64,000 nucleotides of DNA from NCBI RefSeq assembly GCF_008369165.1, contig NZ_VOBA01000001.1, positions 1,729,630-1,793,629 of the forward strand, in the 5' to 3' direction. The notes beneath the pieces are model-generated. The model saw nothing but the letters and a program-made list of their open reading frames with translations. It searched no databases and had not been told where the DNA came from. This DNA comes from Dietzia sp. ANT_WB102 (lineage in GTDB: Bacteria > Actinomycetota > Actinomycetes > Mycobacteriales > Mycobacteriaceae). This document shows positions 4,667-18,887 of this stretch, piece after piece. The stretch's first letter is position 1, and each line of letters begins with the position of its first letter. Both the position numbers and the translations under genes were made by a program.

Positions 4667-5368
4667 TCAGACGGTGGCGTGGATCGCGGTCAGCAGCGCG
4701 TCGGGGTCGGTGAGGTCCGGCAGGACTGCGTGGGCCCCGGCGGCGTGGAGGTCGTCGGCGGAGACCCTGCCGGTGGCCACGGCGACACACGCGGCGCCCG
4801 CGTCGAGTGCGCCGCGAACGTCGTGGACGTGATCGCCGACGATCACGGCCTGCTCGGGGCTGACGTCGAGGCCGCGGGTCCGGGCGGCAGCGATGGCGTC
4901 CCGGACGAGGAGGGCGCGGTCGGCGTGATGATCACCGAACGCGCCAAGGCCGGGATCGGGAAGTCCGTGGAAACCACAGAGCCGCAGCTTGAGAAGCGCG
5001 GTCCGGCGCATGTTGCCCGTGACGATCCCCTGGTGCAACCGCGGGTACTCGGCCAGAGCGGCGACCGCCTCGTGGGCGCCGGGTAGGGGACCGCCACCAC
5101 CGGCGAGGAGATCGTGCCCGAAGATTTCGCACCTCCGGGCAACAGCCTCCATCAGGGCGAAGACCATCTCGTCGTCGTGCAGCTCCACCCCGTTCCTCTC
5201 GAGCAGGTCGGTGAGGATCGCCCGGTCGGTCCGCCCGGCGAAGGACGCCCCCATGACGGGGTCGCGGCCGAGGAAGTCGGCGAGTGTCGGCGCGATCATG
5301 CGAGCGCCGAAGCCAGCCGGGTCGAGGAGGGTAAGGTCCAGATCCCACAAAACCAGTACGGTGGTCAT
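4667..5368 (-). CDS. HAD-family hydrolase (phosphatase-like)
   Basis: 233-residue haloacid dehalogenase-superfamily protein. The nucleophile motif appears as DLDLTLLD with Asp9 and Asp11. Later comes a phosphate-binding SFAGRTDRA region and a C-terminal motif IV (VIVGDHVHDV, near residue 185). The cap resembles the phosphoglycolate phosphatase/PGMB-type helical cap, so it is probably a small-molecule phosphatase; the substrate is unknown. ATG 5368 is preferred over upstream readings because GGAGG lies 9 bp before it and the conserved motif starts within 10 residues. It is transcribed alone, divergent from ppk2 across a tandem-repeat region. Confidence 0.85.
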   Translation of the reverse strand: MTTVLVLWDLDLTLLDPAGFGARMIAPTLADFLGRDPVMGASFAGRTDRAILTDLLERNGVELHDDEMVFALMEAVARRCEIFGHDLLAGGGGPLPGAHEAVAALAEYPRLHQGIVTGNMRRTALLKLRLCGFHGLPDPGLGAFGDHHADRALLVRDAIAAARTRGLDVSPEQAVIVGDHVHDVRGALDAGAACVAVATGRVSADDLHAAGAHAVLPDLTDPDALLTAIHATV

Positions 5369-9002: not shown

Positions 9003-10703
9003 TCAGGCGCCGGGTTCGTCGACGTCGACGCGGGTGAAGGTGCCGAGGCCGTTGCTGTCGAGCAGTTCCACGGTCACCCTGTCGCCGTCGAAGGTGACGC
9101 TGCTGCGGGATCCCGGCGGCCAGTTCTCGCCGAGGGGACGCACGGCAAAGCTGTCACCGTCCCAGTGTTCGAGTGGCCACACGAGTGGGCCCGGGCCCAC
9201 GGCCACGGCCAGAGCGGGACCGGCGGCGGGGTCGTCGACCGGCTTCTGCCCGGGTGCCCCAGCGACGCGGCGGATCTCGATCTCGCCGAAGTAGTCGTTG
9301 CGGTACGTGCCTACCAGCCTGTCGACCGGCCGGGGCGGCGTCGGTGCGGAAGGCTGCCGCGTGGAGACCAGGTCGCCCACCGGGGCCATGAGCGGGCCCA
9401 ACGCCTCCGCGTACAGATCCCGCCACTGCAGGGTCGGGTCGCCGTACTGTGCGTAGTCGGCGATTCGTGCGTTGATCGTCTCGGCCACCCCGACCGGAGA
9501 GGCGTTGGTCAGGGTGATGATGCCCAGATCCAGCGCCGGCATCATGAGCATCGCGGTGCCTGCGCCGAGAGTGAACGCCCCGGAATGACTCCACTGGACC
9601 CGACCGGACGAACTGGTCGAGATGTCGAACCCGTAGCCGTAGCTTCCGGTGCGGTCCGCCGCGGACCGCGGGGGTGCGGACACTGCCTGCGGGGTCAGCG
9701 CCTGTCGGAGAGCGGGGGAGGGGACCACCTGCTGGCCACCGGGCGCCTTGCCGTCGTCGAGCACCATCGCCATCCACCGGGCCATGTCCGTCACCGACGA
9801 GCTCAGTCCACCCGCGGGGGCCTGGGCGTCCGGATCGCGGGCGGGGTCGGCCGGGACCCACTCGCCGGACGACTCGCCCGACTCGGCTGCGGGGGCCCGG
9901 ACGTGGCCGACGGCGCGGTTCTCGCGATCGACCAGGTCCTCGTGGGAGAACGAGGTGTCCCGCATCCCGAGCGGGTCGAAGATCCGTTGGCGGCCAAGCT
10001 CCGCCCAGGGGGTCCCGGCGGCGACGGCCACGGCCTCGGCCCCCGCGGTCAGCCCGAAATTGGTGTAGGCGTACGAGGTGCGAAAAGGCTCCAGCGGCAG
10101 GCGTCGGAGGCCGTGGAGGATCGCCGGCCGCTCGTATCCGACGTCCTCGAGGTCATCTCCCGCGTGCTCGGGCAGACCTGATCGGTGCGCGAACAGGTCA
10201 CCTACCGTGACCTCGGCCGTCACGCGCGGATCGGACAGTGCGAACCACGGCAGGTACTCGAGCACGGGCGTCGACCAGTCGACCTCGCCCGCGGCGGATT
10301 CGGCGGCCACGACCGTCGCGCTGACCGACTTGGAGATCGAGGCCAGCGGGAAGACCGTGCGTTCGTTCACGTTCTCGCCGGTCTCGACGCTGCGCACGCC
10401 GAAGCCCTCGGCCATCGACACCTCGCCGTCGTGCACTACCGCGACGGCAGCACCCGGCACGCCGGAGGCCTCGAGCTCCTCCTCGACGATGTCGGCGACC
10501 TTGCCGATCGCGTACTCGATGCGGTCCTCCGAGACCTCCAGTCCGGAGTACGCCGCGGGACTCTGGCCGGGTTCGGGCTTGGGCAGGGGGCTGCCGCACG
10601 CGGCTGCGGTCAGCGCCACGGCGACACCGGCGGCCACGATCCGTGAGGAACGCCCCGGCAGGTGACGTCTCCGCACGCCCGGCGCGGCCGAATCGCTGGT
10701 CAT
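9003..10703 (-). CDS. Beta-lactamase-fold serine hydrolase, probable lipoprotein
   Basis: 566 residues. An Arg-rich start and hydrophobic segment end in LTAAAC (Cys36), an imperfect lipobox, so it is probably a lipid-anchored extracytoplasmic protein. The class C beta-lactamase/esterase signature is present: S122-I-S-K125 as the SxxK nucleophile motif, a Tyr-x-Asn (YTN) motif in SYAYTNFG, and an HSG in place of KTG. HxG is usual in EstB/AmpH-like peptidases and esterases, so true beta-lactamase activity is not implied. An extra C-terminal domain of about 130 residues is likely a lipocalin-like beta module. It lies on the same strand as ccdA and dsbA but 103 bp away. Confidence 0.85.
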   Translation of the reverse strand: MTSDSAAPGVRRRHLPGRSSRIVAAGVAVALTAAACGSPLPKPEPGQSPAAYSGLEVSEDRIEYAIGKVADIVEEELEASGVPGAAVAVVHDGEVSMAEGFGVRSVETGENVNERTVFPLASISKSVSATVVAAESAAGEVDWSTPVLEYLPWFALSDPRVTAEVTVGDLFAHRSGLPEHAGDDLEDVGYERPAILHGLRRLPLEPFRTSYAYTNFGLTAGAEAVAVAAGTPWAELGRQRIFDPLGMRDTSFSHEDLVDRENRAVGHVRAPAAESGESSGEWVPADPARDPDAQAPAGGLSSSVTDMARWMAMVLDDGKAPGGQQVVPSPALRQALTPQAVSAPPRSAADRTGSYGYGFDISTSSSGRVQWSHSGAFTLGAGTAMLMMPALDLGIITLTNASPVGVAETINARIADYAQYGDPTLQWRDLYAEALGPLMAPVGDLVSTRQPSAPTPPRPVDRLVGTYRNDYFGEIEIRRVAGAPGQKPVDDPAAGPALAVAVGPGPLVWPLEHWDGDSFAVRPLGENWPPGSRSSVTFDGDRVTVELLDSNGLGTFTRVDVDEPGA

Positions 10704-10806: not shown

Positions 10807-11694
10807 TCACGCGTCGCTCCCGGTCCGGAGCGTCGGGGTCTCGGGTAGCTGCAGCCCGCCCGCCTCGGGGCGGGTCCGCCGGCGGCGGCGCACGATGAGC
10901 CAGCCGAGTCCAGCCACCGCCGAGGCCACCGCGACGACGGCCCAGTCGGGGACCCGGGAGGCCTCCTGCAATACGGCTCCCTCCAGTGCGGCCTGATCGG
11001 ATGCGCCGAGGATTCCGCCGAGCTCGGTGGTGCCGGCGGTGACCAGCAGCAGGACGCCGACGGCGATGGTCAGCGCGCCGCCGATCAGCCCGGTCCAGGT
11101 GTTGGTCCAGCGCCCGATCCTCACCTGGCGCGGTCGGACGAGGGTGCGGACCGCCGGCAGGCGTCCCCACAGCAGTGCGAGGACCACCAGCGGTAATGCC
11201 ATGCCGGCGGCGAACACCAGTACGATGATCCCACCGGTGAGTGCCGTCCCCGACACCGCTGCCACGGTCAGCACCGCCCCGAGCAGCGGGCCCGCGCAGA
11301 CACCGGCCAGCCCGTAGACCGTGCCGAGCGCGTAGACGGCCGTGACGGAAGTGCCACCCTCGGCCCCGCCCGAACCACTGGCGCGGCCGTTCGTGCGCAG
11401 GAATGGCACGGGGACGTTGAGCAGCATGACCGCGCCGAGCGCGATGACGATCACCGAGGCCACGGTCACGACCGTGAACCGGTGGGTGTTGACGAACGCC
11501 CCGAGCGTCCCGGCGAGCACGCCGAGCGGCACCAGGGTGGTGATGAGCCCCAGGTAGAACACTCCGGTTCGGGCCAGTAGCGCACGTGGGCTCACGAACG
11601 CGTAGGAGAAGAACGCGGGCAACAGCATTGCCGAGCAGGGGCTGAGCAGTGTCAGCGTCCCGCCGAGGAACGCCCCCAACAGTCCGATGTCCAC
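10807..11694 (-). CDS. CcdA/DsbD-like membrane thiol-disulfide transporter
   Basis: 295 residues with six hydrophobic segments. The CcdA cysteine pair is visible: Cys20 in TLLSPCSAMLLP in the first helix and a second Cys near residue 133 in GVCAGPLLGAV in the fourth. CcdA proteins carry reducing equivalents from cytoplasmic thioredoxin to extracytoplasmic thiol proteins. The charged Arg-rich tail after the last helix is probably cytoplasmic. GTG start; the gene begins 4 bp after the stop of the DsbA-like gene, so the two form an operon. The likely partner is that DsbA-like protein. It may also be under the BlaI-like operator at 12504. Confidence 0.87.
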   Translation of the reverse strand: MDIGLLGAFLGGTLTLLSPCSAMLLPAFFSYAFVSPRALLARTGVFYLGLITTLVPLGVLAGTLGAFVNTHRFTVVTVASVIVIALGAVMLLNVPVPFLRTNGRASGSGGAEGGTSVTAVYALGTVYGLAGVCAGPLLGAVLTVAAVSGTALTGGIIVLVFAAGMALPLVVLALLWGRLPAVRTLVRPRQVRIGRWTNTWTGLIGGALTIAVGVLLLVTAGTTELGGILGASDQAALEGAVLQEASRVPDWAVVAVASAVAGLGWLIVRRRRRTRPEAGGLQLPETPTLRTGSDA

Positions 11695-11698
11695 GGGG

Positions 11699-12463
11699 TC
11701 AGCCGGCGGCCGCGACGGCCTCGTCGAGGTACTCGCGGAACGTCGATGCGGGCTGGGCTCCGGACAGCGCGGTCTGGCCGGCGACGAAGAACGGCACCGC
11801 GGTCACGCCGAGCTGTTGGGCCTGCTGCGTGCCCGCGCGGACCTTCTGCTCGAGCGCCGGGTCGTCGAGGTCGGCGGTGAAGCGCGCGATATCGGGGACC
11901 CCGACCTGCTCGGCGAAGTCGATGAGCACGTCGCGGGTGAGGTCGGCGTGGCCCTTCTCGGGGGCGTCGCCGAAGATGGCGGTGGTGTATTCGACGTAGC
12001 GATCCTGGTTTGCGGCGGCCTGCGCCGCGACGGCGGCGTCCACGGACTGCTCGCCGAAGTAGGCGACGTCGATGAACTCGATGCGCACCTTGCCGGTGTC
12101 CACGTAGTCGGCGATCAGCCCCGGCAGTGTGTCGCGGCTGAAGGCGGCGCAGAAGGGGCAACGTAGGTCGATCCACTCGGTCATGACGACGGGCGCGTCG
12201 ACGTTGCCGATCGCCTTCGGGTCCGTCGCGTCGCGGCGGACGAACTCCATGTCGCCGGCGGCGCTCTGGGCCGGCTCACCGGACTCGCCGGTGTCGGTGG
12301 TCACCGCGGCTGGCTCCTCGGCAGCGGAGGAGCCCTCGACCATCTGGGCGACGACCACCACCGCGAGGAAGACGGCGACGGCGCTGAGGACCCAGTTCAG
12401 GATTCGGGATCGCCGGTAGTTGGCCTCCAGTGTGTGGCGTGACGGGGTGTTGGGGGTACTCAA
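11699..12463 (-). CDS. DsbA-like membrane-anchored thioredoxin-fold oxidoreductase
   Basis: 254 residues. An N-terminal membrane anchor (about 20-40) precedes a Ser/Glu-rich linker and a DsbA-family domain with active site CPFC (about 102-105) and the cis-proline segment GVTAVPFF. It should act outside the membrane in disulfide formation, isomerisation or reduction. I start it at TTG 12463 because AGGAGAGGG lies just upstream; longer readings would run into the operator dyads. It is cotranscribed with ccdA and reads away from the blaI operon. Confidence 0.85.
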   Translation of the reverse strand: MSTPNTPSRHTLEANYRRSRILNWVLSAVAVFLAVVVVAQMVEGSSAAEEPAAVTTDTGESGEPAQSAAGDMEFVRRDATDPKAIGNVDAPVVMTEWIDLRCPFCAAFSRDTLPGLIADYVDTGKVRIEFIDVAYFGEQSVDAAVAAQAAANQDRYVEYTTAIFGDAPEKGHADLTRDVLIDFAEQVGVPDIARFTADLDDPALEQKVRAGTQQAQQLGVTAVPFFVAGQTALSGAQPASTFREYLDEAVAAAG

Positions 12464-12503
12464 TGATCGGCCCTCTCCTGGGTCAGTCGTCCACCGGACC
12501 ACA

Positions 12504-12539
12504 CGACTATGGCACATAGTCGACTATCGCACGTAGTCG
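12504..12539. promoter_or_regulatory. Double dyad operator, probably for the BlaI-like repressor
   Basis: Two copies of CGACTA-N7-TAGTCG occupy 12504-12522 and 12521-12539, overlapping by 2 bp with a centre spacing of 17 bp. The junction forms a perfect ATAGTCGACTAT palindrome at 12516-12527. The site sits between the divergent DsbA-like and CPVC-protein starts, only 13 bp from the latter. A BlaI-family repressor is encoded in the rightward operon. BlaI/MecI/CopY dimers bind short dyads of this kind, so autoregulation plus control of the divergent ccdA-dsbA pair is a strong inference. Confidence 0.72.
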
Positions 12540-12551
12540 ATAGGTGGCATC

Positions 12552-13133
12552 ATGGTCGCCATGGACCGCCCCCGACGTTCACTTTCGTCTCCAGCCCGGA
12601 CTCTGACCCTGGCCGCGCAGGGCCTGCGGACGTGGGGCCCCCGCCAGGTTCTGGTCGCCGCCGGTGTGTCGGTCGCCTTCGGGCTCCTGCTGGGGCTGGC
12701 GACGGTGCTCATCCCCAACCCGGTGTTCACCCGGGAGATCCCGCCGGTGTGGTGGAACTACCCGGTGTGGATCCTCACCTCGGTGCTGTCGGGGATGCTG
12801 GTCGCCACGTACGTGCGGGGTGACGAGGGCGGGGCTGCGGAGGCGGCGGGCGGACGAGGAGCCGTGGGAGATGACGACGACGAGGCCCGCCGGACGAGTC
12901 GGGTCGGCGTCGTCGGGGCCGTCCTCGCGTGGTTCGCGGTGGGATGTCCCGTGTGCAACAAGCTCGCGCTGCTGGCCTTGGGATATTCGGGCGCGATCAC
13001 CTGGTTCGCGCCTGTGCAGCCCGTCCTGGCGATCCTGGCGCTGGCGCTGACCGGGGTGGCGCTGGCGATCCGGCTGCGCGGGCAGGTCGCCTGTGTGCTG
13101 CCTGCGCCTCGGACCACGGTGGCGACCCGATGA
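12552..13133 (+). CDS. Membrane protein with a CPVC motif
   Basis: 193 residues with about five hydrophobic segments split by an acidic loop (about 93-118, with a DDDDE run). The fourth segment contains GCPVCNKLALLALGYSG, a CxxC pair next to or within the membrane. I do not recognise a named family. The CxxC and the divergent DsbA-like/CcdA genes suggest a thiol-disulfide role, but CPVC could instead bind metal. AGGTGG at 12542-12547 supports ATG 12552; ATG 12561 is an alternative. It overlaps blaI by ATGA and heads the operon. Confidence 0.72.
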   Translation: MVAMDRPRRSLSSPARTLTLAAQGLRTWGPRQVLVAAGVSVAFGLLLGLATVLIPNPVFTREIPPVWWNYPVWILTSVLSGMLVATYVRGDEGGAAEAAGGRGAVGDDDDEARRTSRVGVVGAVLAWFAVGCPVCNKLALLALGYSGAITWFAPVQPVLAILALALTGVALAIRLRGQVACVLPAPRTTVATR

Positions 13134-13534
13134 CCGCAGACTCCGGGGACGTCACGATCGGGTCCGGGAGCGAGCCGCCCCGGCTTGGACCGCTGGAGAC
13201 CCAGGTCATGGACCTGCTGTGGGATGAGGGCGCGTCGACGATCCGGCACCTCATCGACCGGCTACCCGGCGATTTCGCGTACACGACCATCGCCACCGTG
13301 CTGTCCAACTTGCACCGCAAGGAGCTGGTGGACGCGGGCAAACGCGGGAGGTCGACCGTCTACTGCGCACGCGGGACACGGGAGGAGCACGTCGCCTCGG
13401 TGATGAACCACGCGCTGGGGACGAGCCGGGACCGGGCGGCGTCGATTCTGCACTTCGCTGAACGCATCCCGGACAGCGAGCTGGACCTGCTGCGTGACTA
13501 TCTGAACCGCCGCGACCATGGGAGCCGAGCGTGA
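13130..13534 (+). CDS. BlaI/MecI/CopY-family transcriptional repressor
   Basis: 134 residues. Winged-helix domain with LGPLETQVMDLLWDEG at the start, a YTTIATVLSNLHRKELV recognition region and an RGRSTVYCA wing, then a C-terminal dimerisation helix pair. This is the layout of BlaI-type repressors (Rv1846c in M. tuberculosis), which are inactivated by proteolysis. ATG 13130 overlaps the previous stop as ATGA and leaves a normal-length BlaI; an upstream reading would add 67 residues unlike the family. It overlaps the M56 gene by GTGA. The likely operators are the dyads at 12504-12539. Confidence 0.92.
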   Translation: MTADSGDVTIGSGSEPPRLGPLETQVMDLLWDEGASTIRHLIDRLPGDFAYTTIATVLSNLHRKELVDAGKRGRSTVYCARGTREEHVASVMNHALGTSRDRAASILHFAERIPDSELDLLRDYLNRRDHGSRA

Positions 13535-14523
13535 CGCACGGGGTACTGGCCGCGCTGCTCATCGGCGGACTGGTGGTCACGGCAGTGGCGGGCCCGCGCG
13601 TGCTGCGCGCCGCGGCGCCCCTGCTCATGCGGGTGCCGCGCCTGGCGGTGGGGCTGCTCTTGGCCGGGACCCTCGCGTGGGTGCTGAGCATGCTCGCGGT
13701 GGGGCCCGTGCTGGCCTGGGTGCTGACCGGCCCGGTGCTTCTGCCGTCCGGCGCGGCGCAGGTGTGCGAGAAGTGCCTGGCCGCGGCCAACCCCTTCGGC
13801 GGTCGGACGGTCGACGCGGGCGTCCCGGCGGCTCTGTTGCTGGCGGCGCCTATCGCGGTTACTGTGCTCTCGCTGGGATCGCTCGGCGGGCAGGTACGTC
13901 GGCGTCACCGGGGCACGCTGCGGTCGGCGCGCCAGTTTCGTGAGCGGGCACGCCGCCGCTCCGTGGCCGGCTACGACGTGCTGCTGGTGGAGGACCGGCA
14001 CCCGTTCGCGCTCAGTCTCCCGCGCCGTCACGGGGGCATCGTCGTGTCGACGGGGGCGGTGGCTCTGCTCGGCACCGACGAGCTCCGGGCGGTCCTGGCC
14101 CATGAGGACGCCCACCTGCGGCAACGCCACCACCTCCTCACCGCACTGGTCGATGGGCTGACCACGAGACTGCGGTGGGTCCCACTGCTGGGTGCGGCCG
14201 CTGACGCGTTCGGCCACTATCTGGAGATCGCCGCGGACGCCGACGCCCGTCGCGTGTCCGGCACCCCGGCGCTCGCCTCCGCTCTGCTGGTGCTGGGGCA
14301 GCACGGTCGGCCTCTCGACGCCGATGATGCTGCCGGACACGACGTCGAGGGTGTCCTGCACGCACTCGGTCCGGACCGGATTCGCCACCTTGTGCAACCG
14401 GGTCGCGGCACCGCGGGCGTGGTCGCGACGGTGACCGGGGTGGGCTGCCTGCTCGCTCTGACGGTGCTAGCCGGCATCGTGCACGTGCCCTACGTGATGG
14501 TGGTCCTCACCGGCTGTGTCTGA
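13531..14523 (+). CDS. M56-family membrane metalloprotease (BlaR1-like, no sensor domain)
   Basis: 330 residues with four hydrophobic segments. The zinc site is AVLAHEDAHLRQRHHLL with HExxH at about 191-195, typical of peptidase family M56. Classical BlaR1 is roughly 600 residues with an extracellular penicillin-binding sensor. That domain is missing here, as in Rv1845c. The inferred job is signal-dependent cleavage of the adjacent BlaI-like repressor, with the signal unknown. GTG start in a GTGA overlap with blaI. The 3' end overlaps the convergent glucosidase gene by 17 bp. Confidence 0.88.
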   Translation: MTHGVLAALLIGGLVVTAVAGPRVLRAAAPLLMRVPRLAVGLLLAGTLAWVLSMLAVGPVLAWVLTGPVLLPSGAAQVCEKCLAAANPFGGRTVDAGVPAALLLAAPIAVTVLSLGSLGGQVRRRHRGTLRSARQFRERARRRSVAGYDVLLVEDRHPFALSLPRRHGGIVVSTGAVALLGTDELRAVLAHEDAHLRQRHHLLTALVDGLTTRLRWVPLLGAAADAFGHYLEIAADADARRVSGTPALASALLVLGQHGRPLDADDAAGHDVEGVLHALGPDRIRHLVQPGRGTAGVVATVTGVGCLLALTVLAGIVHVPYVMVVLTGCV

Positions 14524-15952
14524 CCCGGTCGATGAGGTCGCGGTACCAGTACCACGAATTCTTGCGGGTCCGTTGGAGGGTGTCGAAGTCCACGTGGACG
14601 AGGCCGAACCGCTCGCCGTACCCGGCCGCCCACTCGAAGTTGTCCATCGCCGACCACACGTAGTAGCCGCGAACGTCCACCCCGGCAGCGATCGCCTCGC
14701 TGACCGCGGTCAGGTGCGCCCGCAGGTAGTCGATCCGCCGGACATCGTGGACCGCGCCGTCGGGGCCGGGCCCATCGTCGTACGAGCAGCCGTTCTCGGT
14801 GATGGTGACGGGCGGTAGGCCGGGGTAGCGCTCGTGCAGGGTGCGCAGGATCTCGGTCAGCCCGGACGGCACCACGGGCCAGTCGAAGTCGGTCCGTTCG
14901 ACGCCTTCGATCCGGACGGGGGAGAACGGCATGTCGGCGGGGAAGTCCACCTCGAGGATGCCCGAGTAGTCCTTGCCGGGTTTCGGGGCTTCGATCACCG
15001 TCGGTTCGTAGTAGTTGACGCCGTAGTGGTCCAGGGGCTCGGACATCACCCCGAGGTCGTCCTCGAGCTGGCCAGCGGTCAGGCCGGCGGAGGTCGCGAC
15101 GAGTTCGGCGACAAAGTCATCCGGGTAGCGGCCAGCTAGGACGGGGTCGGCGAACGTCCAGTTGGTGAGGATGCGGAACAGGTCGGCGGCCTCTACGTCT
15201 TCGGGGGAGTCCGATGCCGGGTGGACCGGGAAGTGCTGTTGGACCACCCCCACCTCGTGGTGGTCTCCGGCTGCCCGGATGGCGTGGACGGCGAGCCCGT
15301 GTGCACGCAGGAGATTATGGGCGACGGGCATGCAGTCCAGGCCCATCCCGAGGGCAGGGGCATGGTCGGTGAGCGCGTGCCCGTACAGGGTGTGAACGTT
15401 CATCTCGTTGAGCGTCCACCACTGGTGCACCCGGTCACCGAGGGCGTCAACCATGATGGCGGCGTAGTCGGCCAGCGCATCGGAGGTCGACCGTTCCAGC
15501 CAGCCGCCGGCCGACTGCAGGGCCTGCGGCAGATCCCAGTGGTACAGGGTCGGCACCGGTCGGATGCCGGCGGTCAGCAGTTCGTCGACGAGCCGTGAGT
15601 AGAAGTCCATGCCGCGCTGGTTGACGGTGCCGCGGCCCTCGGGCAGCACCCGCGACCACGAGATCGAGAAGCGGTATTCGTCGATCCCCAGTTGGGCCAG
15701 GTCTCGGACGTCGTCGGCGGACCGGTGGTAGTGGTCGCAGGCCACTGCGGGGGTGTGGCCGCCGCGAATCCGGCCGGGTTCGGTGGCGAAGATGTCCCAG
15801 ATGCTGGGTCCGCGGCCATCGGTCTCGGCGGCACCCTCGATCTGGGCGGCGGCCGTGGCGGTGCCCCAGCGGAAGCCGGAGGGCAGCACCGGGTCGGGGG
15901 GCGCGACCGGCATGGGGTCGGCGGGCGAGGTGACAGACGAGGCGGTCGACAT
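14507..15952 (-). CDS. Family 1 glycoside hydrolase, probable beta-glucosidase
   Basis: 481 residues, the usual GH1 length. It has the N-terminal FRWGTATAAAQIEGA motif, the acid/base segment WWTLNEMN (near residue 180) and the nucleophile segment TITENGCSYDDG (near residue 386). The acid/base motif reads NEM instead of the usual NEP, a mild oddity seen in some members. No signal peptide, so it is cytoplasmic and acts on imported beta-glucosides. ATG 15952 is chosen because the homologous sequence begins shortly after and ATAGGACCC precedes it; a longer reading overlaps the MFS gene. It is the last gene of an operon with the MFS transporter (6-bp gap). Confidence 0.92.
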   Translation of the reverse strand: MSTASSVTSPADPMPVAPPDPVLPSGFRWGTATAAAQIEGAAETDGRGPSIWDIFATEPGRIRGGHTPAVACDHYHRSADDVRDLAQLGIDEYRFSISWSRVLPEGRGTVNQRGMDFYSRLVDELLTAGIRPVPTLYHWDLPQALQSAGGWLERSTSDALADYAAIMVDALGDRVHQWWTLNEMNVHTLYGHALTDHAPALGMGLDCMPVAHNLLRAHGLAVHAIRAAGDHHEVGVVQQHFPVHPASDSPEDVEAADLFRILTNWTFADPVLAGRYPDDFVAELVATSAGLTAGQLEDDLGVMSEPLDHYGVNYYEPTVIEAPKPGKDYSGILEVDFPADMPFSPVRIEGVERTDFDWPVVPSGLTEILRTLHERYPGLPPVTITENGCSYDDGPGPDGAVHDVRRIDYLRAHLTAVSEAIAAGVDVRGYYVWSAMDNFEWAAGYGERFGLVHVDFDTLQRTRKNSWYWYRDLIDRVRHSR

Positions 15953-15957
15953 GGGTC

Positions 15958-17184
15958 CTATCTGATGGATCGTAGGGGCAGGGTGCACAGGGCGGCGGCC
16001 ACGGCGATCATCGCGCCGACTACGTACAAGGCCGGGTATCCGGCGGCGGACAGGACGATGGGCGCGGCGAGTGTGGGCGCAACGACCTGGGGCAGCGAGT
16101 TGGCGATGTTGGCGAGCCCCAGCAGCGTGCCGGAGGTGGTGTCGTCGGCGAGTGTGGAGGTGATGATCGCCATGTCGACGCCGATGAACAGGCCCCACCC
16201 GAGACCGAGGACCGTGGCGGCGGCCAGGACCATCGGCATCGTCGCGGCCACGGCGAGCAGGACCAGCCCACCGGCGGTGAGGAGTGCCCCGGCCAGTGCG
16301 AACACGCGTCGCCGGGCCAGCCGGTCGGAGATGGTGCCGGTCAGCCCGGCGCACAACGCGGACAGCGTCAGGGTGATCACGGTGACGAGGAGGACCGCGG
16401 CGGCGACGTCGTCGGCCTGCACCACCTCCTCGAGGAAGAAGTACAGGTAGATGAGCAGGATCGCGTTGGTGAGGTTCATGAGGAACCGCAGCATCCACGC
16501 CCACAGATAGTCGTGGGTGGGGCGGAAGTTCTGCACCCCGCGGCCGCGTGGAGCCTCCGGTGGTGGCGCGGGGTGACCGTGGTGGACCAGCACGATCGCG
16601 GCGAGCAGCACGGGGGTGAGCAGGGCCAGCACGAGGTAGCCGACGGTGCTGGCACCCACGGCCTCTGCAACCACGGTCCCGGCGATGACGCCGACGATCT
16701 GCCCGACCCCGAACAGGGAGCCGACGGTCCCTCGCTGGCTGCCCGGGACGCGGTCGGCGATGAGGGCGGCCAGTACGGCGAACGGTCCGTTGAGCCCCAG
16801 CTGCACGAGCACCCAGCCGGCGAGGGTGGCGGGGCCGGTGGTCGCGGTGAACAGCACTATCTGGCCGGCGACCCCGACGGCGGTGCCCACGTAGACCACG
16901 GGCATGCGGGTGCCGAACCGGGTGCGGCAGCGGTCGGAGACGAATCCCCACAGCGGGGTGGCGACCAGCGCGACCGCGGCGCCGACGCCGACCACCAGGG
17001 CGAGCAGCTTCTCCCGGTCGCCGGGGCCGGCGATCTGGTCGGCCTGGGCGGGAAGCAGGATCTGCAGCGGGCCGAACCAGGAGGCGAATACTGCCACCAC
17101 GCCCAGCGTGAGCGCGATGATCCAGATCGCCCCGACCGGACGGTCGGTGACGGGCGCGGCCGGTGCGGCCCCGCCTCTGCTCAT
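15958..17184 (-). CDS. MFS transporter, probable sugar or glycoside permease
   Basis: 408 residues with 12 predicted transmembrane helices. A typical MFS loop GFVSDRCRTRFGTRMP follows helix 2, and the corresponding SDRLARRRVF loop occurs in the second half. The RFGTRMP-type loop resembles sugar:cation symporter-like MFS proteins. ATG 17184 overlaps the previous gene's stop as ATGA, which decides the start over one 27 bp upstream. Placement directly ahead of a cytoplasmic GH1 enzyme suggests it imports a beta-glucoside; this is inferred from context. Confidence 0.87.
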   Translation of the reverse strand: MSRGGAAPAAPVTDRPVGAIWIIALTLGVVAVFASWFGPLQILLPAQADQIAGPGDREKLLALVVGVGAAVALVATPLWGFVSDRCRTRFGTRMPVVYVGTAVGVAGQIVLFTATTGPATLAGWVLVQLGLNGPFAVLAALIADRVPGSQRGTVGSLFGVGQIVGVIAGTVVAEAVGASTVGYLVLALLTPVLLAAIVLVHHGHPAPPPEAPRGRGVQNFRPTHDYLWAWMLRFLMNLTNAILLIYLYFFLEEVVQADDVAAAVLLVTVITLTLSALCAGLTGTISDRLARRRVFALAGALLTAGGLVLLAVAATMPMVLAAATVLGLGWGLFIGVDMAIITSTLADDTTSGTLLGLANIANSLPQVVAPTLAAPIVLSAAGYPALYVVGAMIAVAAALCTLPLRSIR

Positions 17185-18887
17185 CTGGCCTGTTCCCAGT
17201 TGGCAGTCCACGCCTCGGCGCCGCCCATGAGTTGGCGCTCCAACTCGGCGCGGTCAGCACCGGCCCGGTGCAACAGGTCGGCGGCCCAGTCGGCGTAGAG
17301 GCCGTACTGCGCCACCCCGTCGGTGTTGAGGTCGTACGTGCGCTCGCCGAACCGCCACCTGTCCATCACTTCGCCGCTGAGGGCGGTGAACGGGTAGACC
17401 AGCGGGTCACCGGCCGCACTCGGCCGCGGCTCGGCGAGTGGCGCAAGACCGTTGACGTCCGAACCGAATCCGTAGCCGTCGAACGGTCGGGTGGCGCCGG
17501 CGGTGGTGGCCCGCCACTGCTCGAGGAAGCCGGTCTCGAAGTTCTCTGTGGCCTCGGCGGGCCAGGCGAACGCGGCGACGAACCCGCCCTGCTCGTGCAC
17601 CCGGCGAGTGATGCCCTGGGTAGCCCAGTTGTGGTCCACAACGAGGCCGGTGTATCCGGCCTCTGCGGCCATGTCGAGGGTGCGGTGGGCGGTCTTGACG
17701 CCCATGTGGTCGATGTTGATCACCATGCCGCGCGCCATCAACCCGCGGATCGCGTGTTCACCCAGCGGGGTCAGGCCGCGGACGTTGCACAGCGGGGTCT
17801 CGGGATAGACGGGCAGCGCCACGCCCGCCGGAGCTCCCGAGGATGCCGTGGCTAGTCCGTCGGCGACGGGCGTGCTGGCCAGGGGCTGATCGTGGTCGGC
17901 GTCGGGGCCGGTGCACGGTTCGGTCTCCCAGAAGCGTTGCGTGCCGAGCTTGTTGCCGATGTTCACCGCCAGCCCGGCCAGTTCCTCGTCCATGCGGGCG
18001 CCGCCGAGGGCATTGTCGAACTTGTGGACCGGGAACACCGTGGACACACCCCATGAGGCGAATTCGTCGAGTCCGCGGTCGATGTCCTCGGCTGTGCACA
18101 TCGGCACGTCGTCGACCTCTCGGCAGCCGAACGGCTCGGATGCCTCCACTCCCAGCGTCACGGCGAGTTTTCCCTCGGCGGCGATCGTCCGGACGTCGGC
18201 CGGGGAGCGGGCGATCCGGAACCACCCCTGCCCGGGCCCGCCGTTCTCGGCGTCGATGTGGGCTTCCATCCTGTTGAGATAGTCCACCTGTCGGCGCAGC
18301 TGGGCCATCTCGTCGCACGAGGACCGCGCGGGGACCCCGAGGCCGACGAGGGTCTCGCACAGCACTCGATTGGCGACGAGATGGTTGTTGAGTACCCGTA
18401 GGCCGCCCCGCCAGGCCCGCTCGATACCGGTGTAGTAGGCCTGCTCGTGGAGTTGGGAGTCGTGTGTCGGCCACTGCTCGAACGTGGGGAACCCTTGCGT
18501 CCCGCCGGGTAGCGCGGTGCCACCGAGGATGGATTCGAGCAGTGAGAAGGGCCCGGTGCCCGAGTGGGTGGGGCAGTCCGCCATCGCTTCCGCGAGGCCT
18601 CCCGGCGCGAACGGTTCGCCGCAGCGCAGGGCACCGCCGAACGCCTGCGATGCCGCGATATGGGTGTGGGCGTCCACCATTCCTCTGATCGGAGTGCTGC
18701 CGATGGGAGCGCCGTTGATGGGAGTGCCGCTGTTCGGTTCGGCCGCCGTGGCAGGCGGGGAACCGACGGTGGTGACCGCCGCGGTGAGGGGTGTTGCCAG
18801 GGCGACGACGGCGAGGACCGCCATCGCCGCCCTCGCCCACGTTCCGGAGTGTGCCGATCGTGCTGTCGTCGCACCGGGAGCCGCCAT
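17181..18887 (-). CDS. Secreted metal-dependent hydrolase (M19/amidohydrolase-like)
   Basis: 568 residues. A signal peptide (about 1-45, ending near ATAAEP) implies export. The mature start VDAHTHI is a metal-binding motif of amidohydrolase/renal-dipeptidase-like TIM barrels. Later motifs include EQAYYTGIERAWRGGLRVL, GVEASEPFGC, VINIDHMG and VDHNWATQG. This matches a family of secreted actinobacterial proteins often labelled peptidase M19-like; the substrate is unknown. Cysteines come in several spaced pairs, consistent with exported disulfides. It is first in the operon with the MFS transporter and GH1 enzyme, though why it belongs there is unclear. Confidence 0.75.
   Translation of the reverse strand: MAAPGATTARSAHSGTWARAAMAVLAVVALATPLTAAVTTVGSPPATAAEPNSGTPINGAPIGSTPIRGMVDAHTHIAASQAFGGALRCGEPFAPGGLAEAMADCPTHSGTGPFSLLESILGGTALPGGTQGFPTFEQWPTHDSQLHEQAYYTGIERAWRGGLRVLNNHLVANRVLCETLVGLGVPARSSCDEMAQLRRQVDYLNRMEAHIDAENGGPGQGWFRIARSPADVRTIAAEGKLAVTLGVEASEPFGCREVDDVPMCTAEDIDRGLDEFASWGVSTVFPVHKFDNALGGARMDEELAGLAVNIGNKLGTQRFWETEPCTGPDADHDQPLASTPVADGLATASSGAPAGVALPVYPETPLCNVRGLTPLGEHAIRGLMARGMVINIDHMGVKTAHRTLDMAAEAGYTGLVVDHNWATQGITRRVHEQGGFVAAFAWPAEATENFETGFLEQWRATTAGATRPFDGYGFGSDVNGLAPLAEPRPSAAGDPLVYPFTALSGEVMDRWRFGERTYDLNTDGVAQYGLYADWAADLLHRAGADRAELERQLMGGAEAWTANWEQAR

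Follow-up and report, generated by a model that had tools for sequence, protein, structure and literature searches.

A shortened BlaR-type switch beside thiol-exchange genes in Dietzia suggests sensing of thiol or copper stress rather than penicillin

In staphylococci, the protease BlaR1 has an N-out/C-out topology and a loop, EL1 (residues 56-96), that is thought to signal, and the BlaI repressor of Staphylococcus aureus is cleaved between Asn101 and Phe102 (available text of PMC9834060). Pairs of BlaI with a BlaR protease without sensor are already known from mycobacteria, where, according to the available text of PMC5473688, the mode of response is unknown and BlaI also binds at the cytochrome bd and ATP synthase promoters. 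Here we describe a locus of Dietzia sp. ANT_WB102, contained in a stretch of 64,000 nucleotides of contig NZ_VOBA01000001.1 (the window, numbered from its first letter), in which the genes for an uncharacterised membrane protein with a CPVC motif (cpvc), a BlaI repressor and a BlaR1-like membrane zinc protease without sensor domain are divergent from a dsbA-ccdA pair, with two palindromic dyads between both sets. This arrangement had been put forward in the original prediction, made from the letters alone, and is confirmed by our analysis. It suggests that a shortened BlaR-type switch senses thiol or copper stress, not penicillin.

The locus has in common with staphylococcal BlaR1/BlaI a repressor of the BlaI/MecI family and a zinc protease of the BlaR1 fold, and with mycobacterial BlaR (Rv1845c)/BlaI (Rv1846c) the pairing of BlaI with a sensorless protease. 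In contrast to the staphylococcal system, it combines outer cysteines with the company of thiol-exchange genes and has no penicillin-binding sensor. The BlaI repressor (13130..13534, forward strand) matches PF03965 above the cut-off (3.1e-22), and its nearest solved relative is 2g9w, which we take to be Rv1846c. The CcdA-type thiol-disulfide membrane transporter (10807..11694, reverse strand; PF02683, 6e-12; PF13386, 2.8e-07) and the membrane-anchored DsbA/thioredoxin-4 protein (11699..12463, reverse strand; PF13462, 5.8e-28; PF01323, 1.5e-17) make up a thiol-exchange pair, that is, a DsbD_TM membrane protein and a thioredoxin-fold partner with a CxxC motif (CPFC). The dsbA gene is read from a TTG codon at 12463, preceded by GGAGAGGG; the ATG at 12517, an alternative start, falls within a dyad. 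Dyad 1 (CGACTA-N7-TAGTCG, 12504..12522) and dyad 2 (12521..12539), which lies 17 bp beyond it and has TAGTCGACTA in common with it, are proposed as BlaI operators from their sequence and from the comparison of loci. The staphylococcal operator is of the TACA/TGTA type (available text of PMC7253601), whereas the conserved putative operator here is ACTA-N7-TAGT.

This comparison relies on 50 loci with cpvc relatives (numbered with the prefix L), obtained by a protein search of genome contigs, among which 32 have cpvc, blaI and protease together and are called module loci. They cover Dietzia, Leucobacter, Nesterenkonia, Isoptericola, Rhodococcus and Amycolatopsis, with protease identities down to 38%. 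Upstream sequence was sufficient to look for the dyad in 31 of the 32 (L052 is too short), and ACTA-N7-TAGT was found in 30 of these 31 (62 sites, where 0.025 are expected from dinucleotide shuffles), so the conservation of the paired dyad in relatives, an earlier proposed check, holds. The spacer upstream of cpvc is 7 in 61 of the 62 matches (spacers 0-15 scanned), and neighbouring dyads are 16-17 bp apart in 28 of 32 cases, matching the window. At the sole locus without a dyad in the tested region (L013), dyads at 4937 and 4954 adjoin cpvc outside that region.

The dyad was also counted at the scale of genomes. Exact CGACTA-N7-TAGTCG dyads occur in the window genome at this locus only, and the core ACTA-N7-TAGT occurs 3 times, against 43 times for the reversed control; the third core site was rejected as a regulon member. 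Among 23 genomes of the genus, a module-type cpvc (E below 1e-60) with adjacent BlaI is present in 10, and paired dyads are found in exactly those 10 and in none of the 13 module-less genomes, five of which are less than 90% complete. Across 16 whole genomes with the module (a count that leaves out L014), the strict dyad was found at 39 sites against 5 for the control, and 31 of the 39, placed by coordinates, are at the module or at linked genes for DsbA or for a lipoprotein named c4, described below. Of the 8 remaining, one lies 285 bp from a c4 homologue (L281) and six are on one Amycolatopsis contig bearing csoR, copA, DUF305, cpvc and a BlaI/protease pair. The reading of the dyad as a chance palindrome is rejected by the site counts against shuffles and reversed control and by the co-occurrence within the genus.

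Since the window genome encodes only one BlaI, this protein is by far the likeliest reader of the dyads, and we hold it very probable, from sequence comparison, that BlaI acts through them. In Leucobacter L007 and L033 all five genes are collinear and a dyad stands in front of dsbA, which argues for counting the dsbA side as part of the regulon; moreover, a second dsbA gene in L036, about 4.5 kb from the module, has its own pair of dyads (9512-9543). The co-regulation of both gene sets by BlaI via the dyads, as first predicted, is therefore strongly supported at sequence level by dyad conservation, the near-exclusive spacer of 7, the dyad before dsbA in collinear loci, the genus co-occurrence and the 31 of 39 dyads placed at the module.

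The distribution of the module calls for some remarks. It is patchy within the genus (10/23 genomes), and five genus genomes (G179, G212, G260, G261 and G266) have a further BlaI elsewhere; G266 carries, in addition to the compact module, a second cpvc of the distal type (C1:3485054-3487012), which has a BlaI and a dyad of its own. In L007 (Leucobacter UT-8R), DsbA and CcdA share 62% and 73% identity with those of the window, well above other Micrococcales loci, and the protease is the second nearest to that of the window on the tree; horizontal transfer of this locus is thus likely.

The protease (13531..14523, forward strand) was assigned to the BlaR1-fold membrane zinc proteases by Pfam and predicted structure. 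It is 330 amino acids long, carries an HExxH zinc-protease motif (14101..14115) and ends after its last transmembrane (TM) helix, and no extracellular penicillin-binding sensor domain was found by the Pfam search. Two cysteines, C79 and C82, form a CxxC motif (13765..13776) in the TM2-TM3 loop, the equivalent of EL1 in BlaR1, and a third, C329 (14515..14517), is placed at the outer C-terminal end. HExxH and the three cysteines are among the invariant residues (27/27) in an alignment of 27 module proteases, which omits near-duplicates (L009, L030, L040 and L041) and incomplete sequences (L004 and L005). The CxxC is also present in all six compact proteases so omitted, and the three cysteine positions are kept in 6/6 further distinct compact loci (seven were collected, L138 being the same record as L003). 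In the structural model, C79 and C82 belong to a short, low-confidence helix and C329 comes right after the last helix. Considering both the Arg-rich stretches after TM1 and TM3 (4 and 10 lysine plus arginine residues) and the N-out/C-out topology of BlaR1, the cysteines are predicted on the outer face. The link to thiol chemistry consequently reaches further than first claimed, as the protease itself bears invariant cysteines, predicted to lie on its outer face, and these cysteines probably act as the sensor in place of the penicillin domain. On the repressor side, codons 13451..13456 encode H108-F109, the equivalent of the Asn101-Phe102 cleavage site of BlaI; F109 aligns with the Phe after the known cleavage point (profile match to 1sd4), and F is found in 26/27 BlaI.

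The cpvc product (12552..13133, forward strand) has invariant C132, C135, C181 and K137 in an alignment of 36 sequences, C132-C135 corresponding to the CPVC codons at 12945..12956. Pfam and NCBIfam searches gave no match for this protein. A known fold was sought and rejected, the best Foldseek E being 0.71 and a single PDB sequence match being at chance level (E 0.82); as the model itself has a confidence score (pLDDT) of 78.8, these failed matches are no proof of a new fold. Outside the module, cpvc was found next to cydAB (L045) or lnt and lgt (L046). In L019, L024, L043 and L044, cpvc without module stands near varying sets of rhodanese or metallo-lactamase/rhodanese proteins, TauE exporters and a CsoR-family repressor, neighbours which suggest a role in persulfide chemistry.

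We propose that the module is a self-contained, BlaI-repressed divergon for thiol stress, whose protease is triggered at an outer thiol site, and consider this the probable reading. BlaI dimers on the two overlapping dyads would hold down both the dsbA-ccdA and the cpvc-blaI-protease promoters. The CxxC of the EL1 equivalent and the outer C-terminal cysteine would form the thiol site of the sensorless protease, triggered by its oxidation, by binding of a soft metal such as Cu(I), or by persulfidation. The inner zinc domain of the triggered protease would then cut BlaI next to F109, and the cut BlaI would leave the DNA, allowing DsbA, CcdA and the CPVC protein to be made. These proteins may pass electrons to extracytoplasmic thiols and repair damage. 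They would also reset the cysteines of the protease and thereby switch the system off, closing a negative loop. In this scheme the gene content, operator conservation, predicted topology and fold, invariant cysteines and conserved cleavage residue are supported by the tools used; from them we infer the binding of BlaI and its repression of both sides, the sensor role of the cysteines, the ligand and the feedback.

The cysteine pair is not general among BlaR-type proteases. As controls, we took the 30 loci with the best PF03965 scores in 150 genomes of the order (L057-L086), of which L081 has no protease (n=29). CxxC is present in 0/29 control proteases, and 23/29 have no pair of EL1 and C-terminal cysteines; none of these 23, which we assume to be of the Rv1845c type, has ACTA-N7-TAGT within 1.5 kb, unlike the present module. 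The other six have one cysteine at each place (L057, L071, L079, L082, L084 and L085, cut with wider flanks as L150, L146, L147, L151, L152 and L149, respectively). Their neighbours include cpvc and a multicopper oxidase gene (L146 and L147), csoR and copA (L151) and DUF305 and copA (L152), and are weak in L150 (DUF305, 27%) and L149 (dsbA, 28%). Another 60 BlaI loci were compared, 56 with and four without an adjacent protease; they comprise 40 loci taken down a ranked list with some skipped (L205-L244) and 20 hand-picked ones (L245-L264, where L245-L257 are wider cuts of 13 controls). In this partly hand-picked sample, a copper or thiol marker is found within the fetched stretch for 16/22 proteases with the cysteine pair versus 1/34 without (Fisher p 2.6e-8), and an N7 dyad for 12/22 versus 5/34 (p 0.0026); without the 20 hand-picked loci, the marker counts, made by eye, are 13/19 versus 1/17 (Fisher p 1.4e-4). 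The cysteine criterion was loose in this set (L225 and L259 were scored as pairs despite odd positions), and L216 is an exception, with cpvc, ccdA and dsbA nearby and a loop cysteine but no C-terminal one. In a protease tree of 94 rows, the compact proteases form one clade (Shimodaira-Hasegawa-like approximate likelihood ratio test, SH-aLRT, 99) and the 56 labelled rows show only 4 changes of the cysteine pair; the association between pair and marker thus lies between subfamilies and is not independent of descent.

Copper or another soft metal may be the physiological signal, with the outer cysteines coordinating Cu(I) and the module representing a compact relative of copper-resistance islands; we regard this as possible, though less likely than thiol stress in the broader sense. 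Twenty regions (L117-L136), selected on cpvc only, served to follow the distal relatives of this gene (41-59% identity across the portion that matched). Many of these regions form islands that combine several genes out of csoR, copA, DUF305, multicopper oxidase, YkuD L,D-transpeptidase and NlpC/P60 genes, together with lnt, lgt, extra ctaD, redoxin/TlpA, dsbA, ccdA, ccsB and BlaI/protease pairs. Dyads precede many of these genes, and in L132 two of them have their centres 18 and 99 bp from the start of a multicopper oxidase frame; L120, L134 and L135 have neither dyads nor BlaI. All 12 proteases of L117-L136 have at least one EL1 cysteine and one C-terminal cysteine, and these 12 are the only fair island sample, since L146-L155 were chosen partly for a loop cysteine or dyad. 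The islands thus share cpvc, dsbA/ccdA, the BlaI/outer-cysteine protease pair and the dyad with the compact modules; however, the island proteases are without CxxC (0/12) and the compact modules are nearly without copper genes. Indeed, a marker search of the 32 module loci, to at most about 5 kb on each side, yielded neither copA nor DUF305 nor a multicopper oxidase gene, and a single weak csoR-like gene (L013, 35%); four of these loci have a rhodanese/metallo-lactamase protein instead (L013, L020, L027 weakly, and L040); the sole copA-like match (37%) in the additional compact loci is that of L144, at a distance of about 5 kb. CopY/TcrY repressors belong to the same superfamily as the window BlaI, and relatives of the module also stand among copper genes, but the match to TIGR02698 (E 2.5e-07, 31 bits) is far under the cut-off of 121.95. 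Direct copper sensing by BlaI is rejected, because the window BlaI has a single cysteine and lacks a CxC metal site at its C-terminus; a metal would have to be sensed elsewhere than in BlaI, and the signal, unlike that of CopY, would pass via the protease.

The islands show features of their own. Stretches of 16-20 kb (L117-L119, L128, L132, L133, L136 and L282-L284) contain up to nine ACTA-N7-TAGT dyads, preceding multicopper oxidase, Lnt, L,D-transpeptidase, DUF305, NlpC/P60 and CcdA genes. Spacer 10 forms a further peak in the islands (47 versus 62 at spacer 7), which suggests an outer repeat such as ACTACTA-N7-TAGTAGT.

It is unlikely that the cysteines only form a structural disulfide while the protease answers a partner, such as c4 or the hydrolase lipoprotein, or cell-wall cues. 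The lipoprotein c4, which is beta-propeller-like (PQQ_2, just under cut-off), has homologues in 17/50 loci, mostly adjoining ccdA. The lone dyad 285 bp from a c4 match in L281 and another dyad between ccdA and c4 in L013 make c4 look like a further regulon member outside Dietzia (L281:7575, L030:1959-3221 and L013:1646). The window, however, has no c4 and none is labelled in Dietzia loci, and the number of loop cysteines varies between the compact and island classes, yet both positions are kept.

That the dyads serve autoregulation of cpvc-blaI-protease only, dsbA-ccdA being independent and merely adjacent, is very improbable: the window dyads do lie nearer to cpvc, with 12 bases between them and its start against 40 on the dsbA side, but dyads precede dsbA in the collinear L007 and L033 and occur at the separate dsbA of L036. 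The last gene on the ccdA side encodes, as predicted at the outset, a serine hydrolase lipoprotein of class C beta-lactamase fold (9003..10703, reverse strand; PF00144, 9.4e-64), which adjoins ccdA in the window, L004 and L139. We nevertheless give almost no weight to a staphylococcal-type response to beta-lactams or to the state of the cell wall, with the thiol genes folding this hydrolase, as the protease is without penicillin-binding domain, the non-Dietzia loci compared have no hydrolase match and no separate dyad goes with the hydrolase gene of the window. On the other side, glycosidase-like and major-facilitator-like frames, named by eye, are convergent with the protease gene (14507-17211, reverse strand) and show no sign of module membership.

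Among the matches listed in open-licence literature, judged mostly by title or the start of the abstract, we found neither a BlaI regulon of CcdA, DsbA and CPVC, nor an ACTA-N7-TAGT tandem operator for such a regulon, nor a cysteine-bearing BlaR class. How BlaR proteases without penicillin domain are triggered is presented as an open question for Mycobacterium tuberculosis in the available text of PMC5473688. The protease class defined here offers a candidate sensor, with three residues, a defined operator and a regulon that predicts the inducer (thiol exchange, and copper-type islands in relatives). We tentatively suggest, at somewhat less than even confidence, that a widespread actinobacterial class of sensorless BlaR senses thiol oxidation or soft metals via cysteines of the signalling loop and C-terminus, that switching in answer to envelope thiols is the general role of BlaI systems, with penicillin sensing as one special case, and that CPVC proteins are a new thiol-relay family; this would give the CPVC family a first function.

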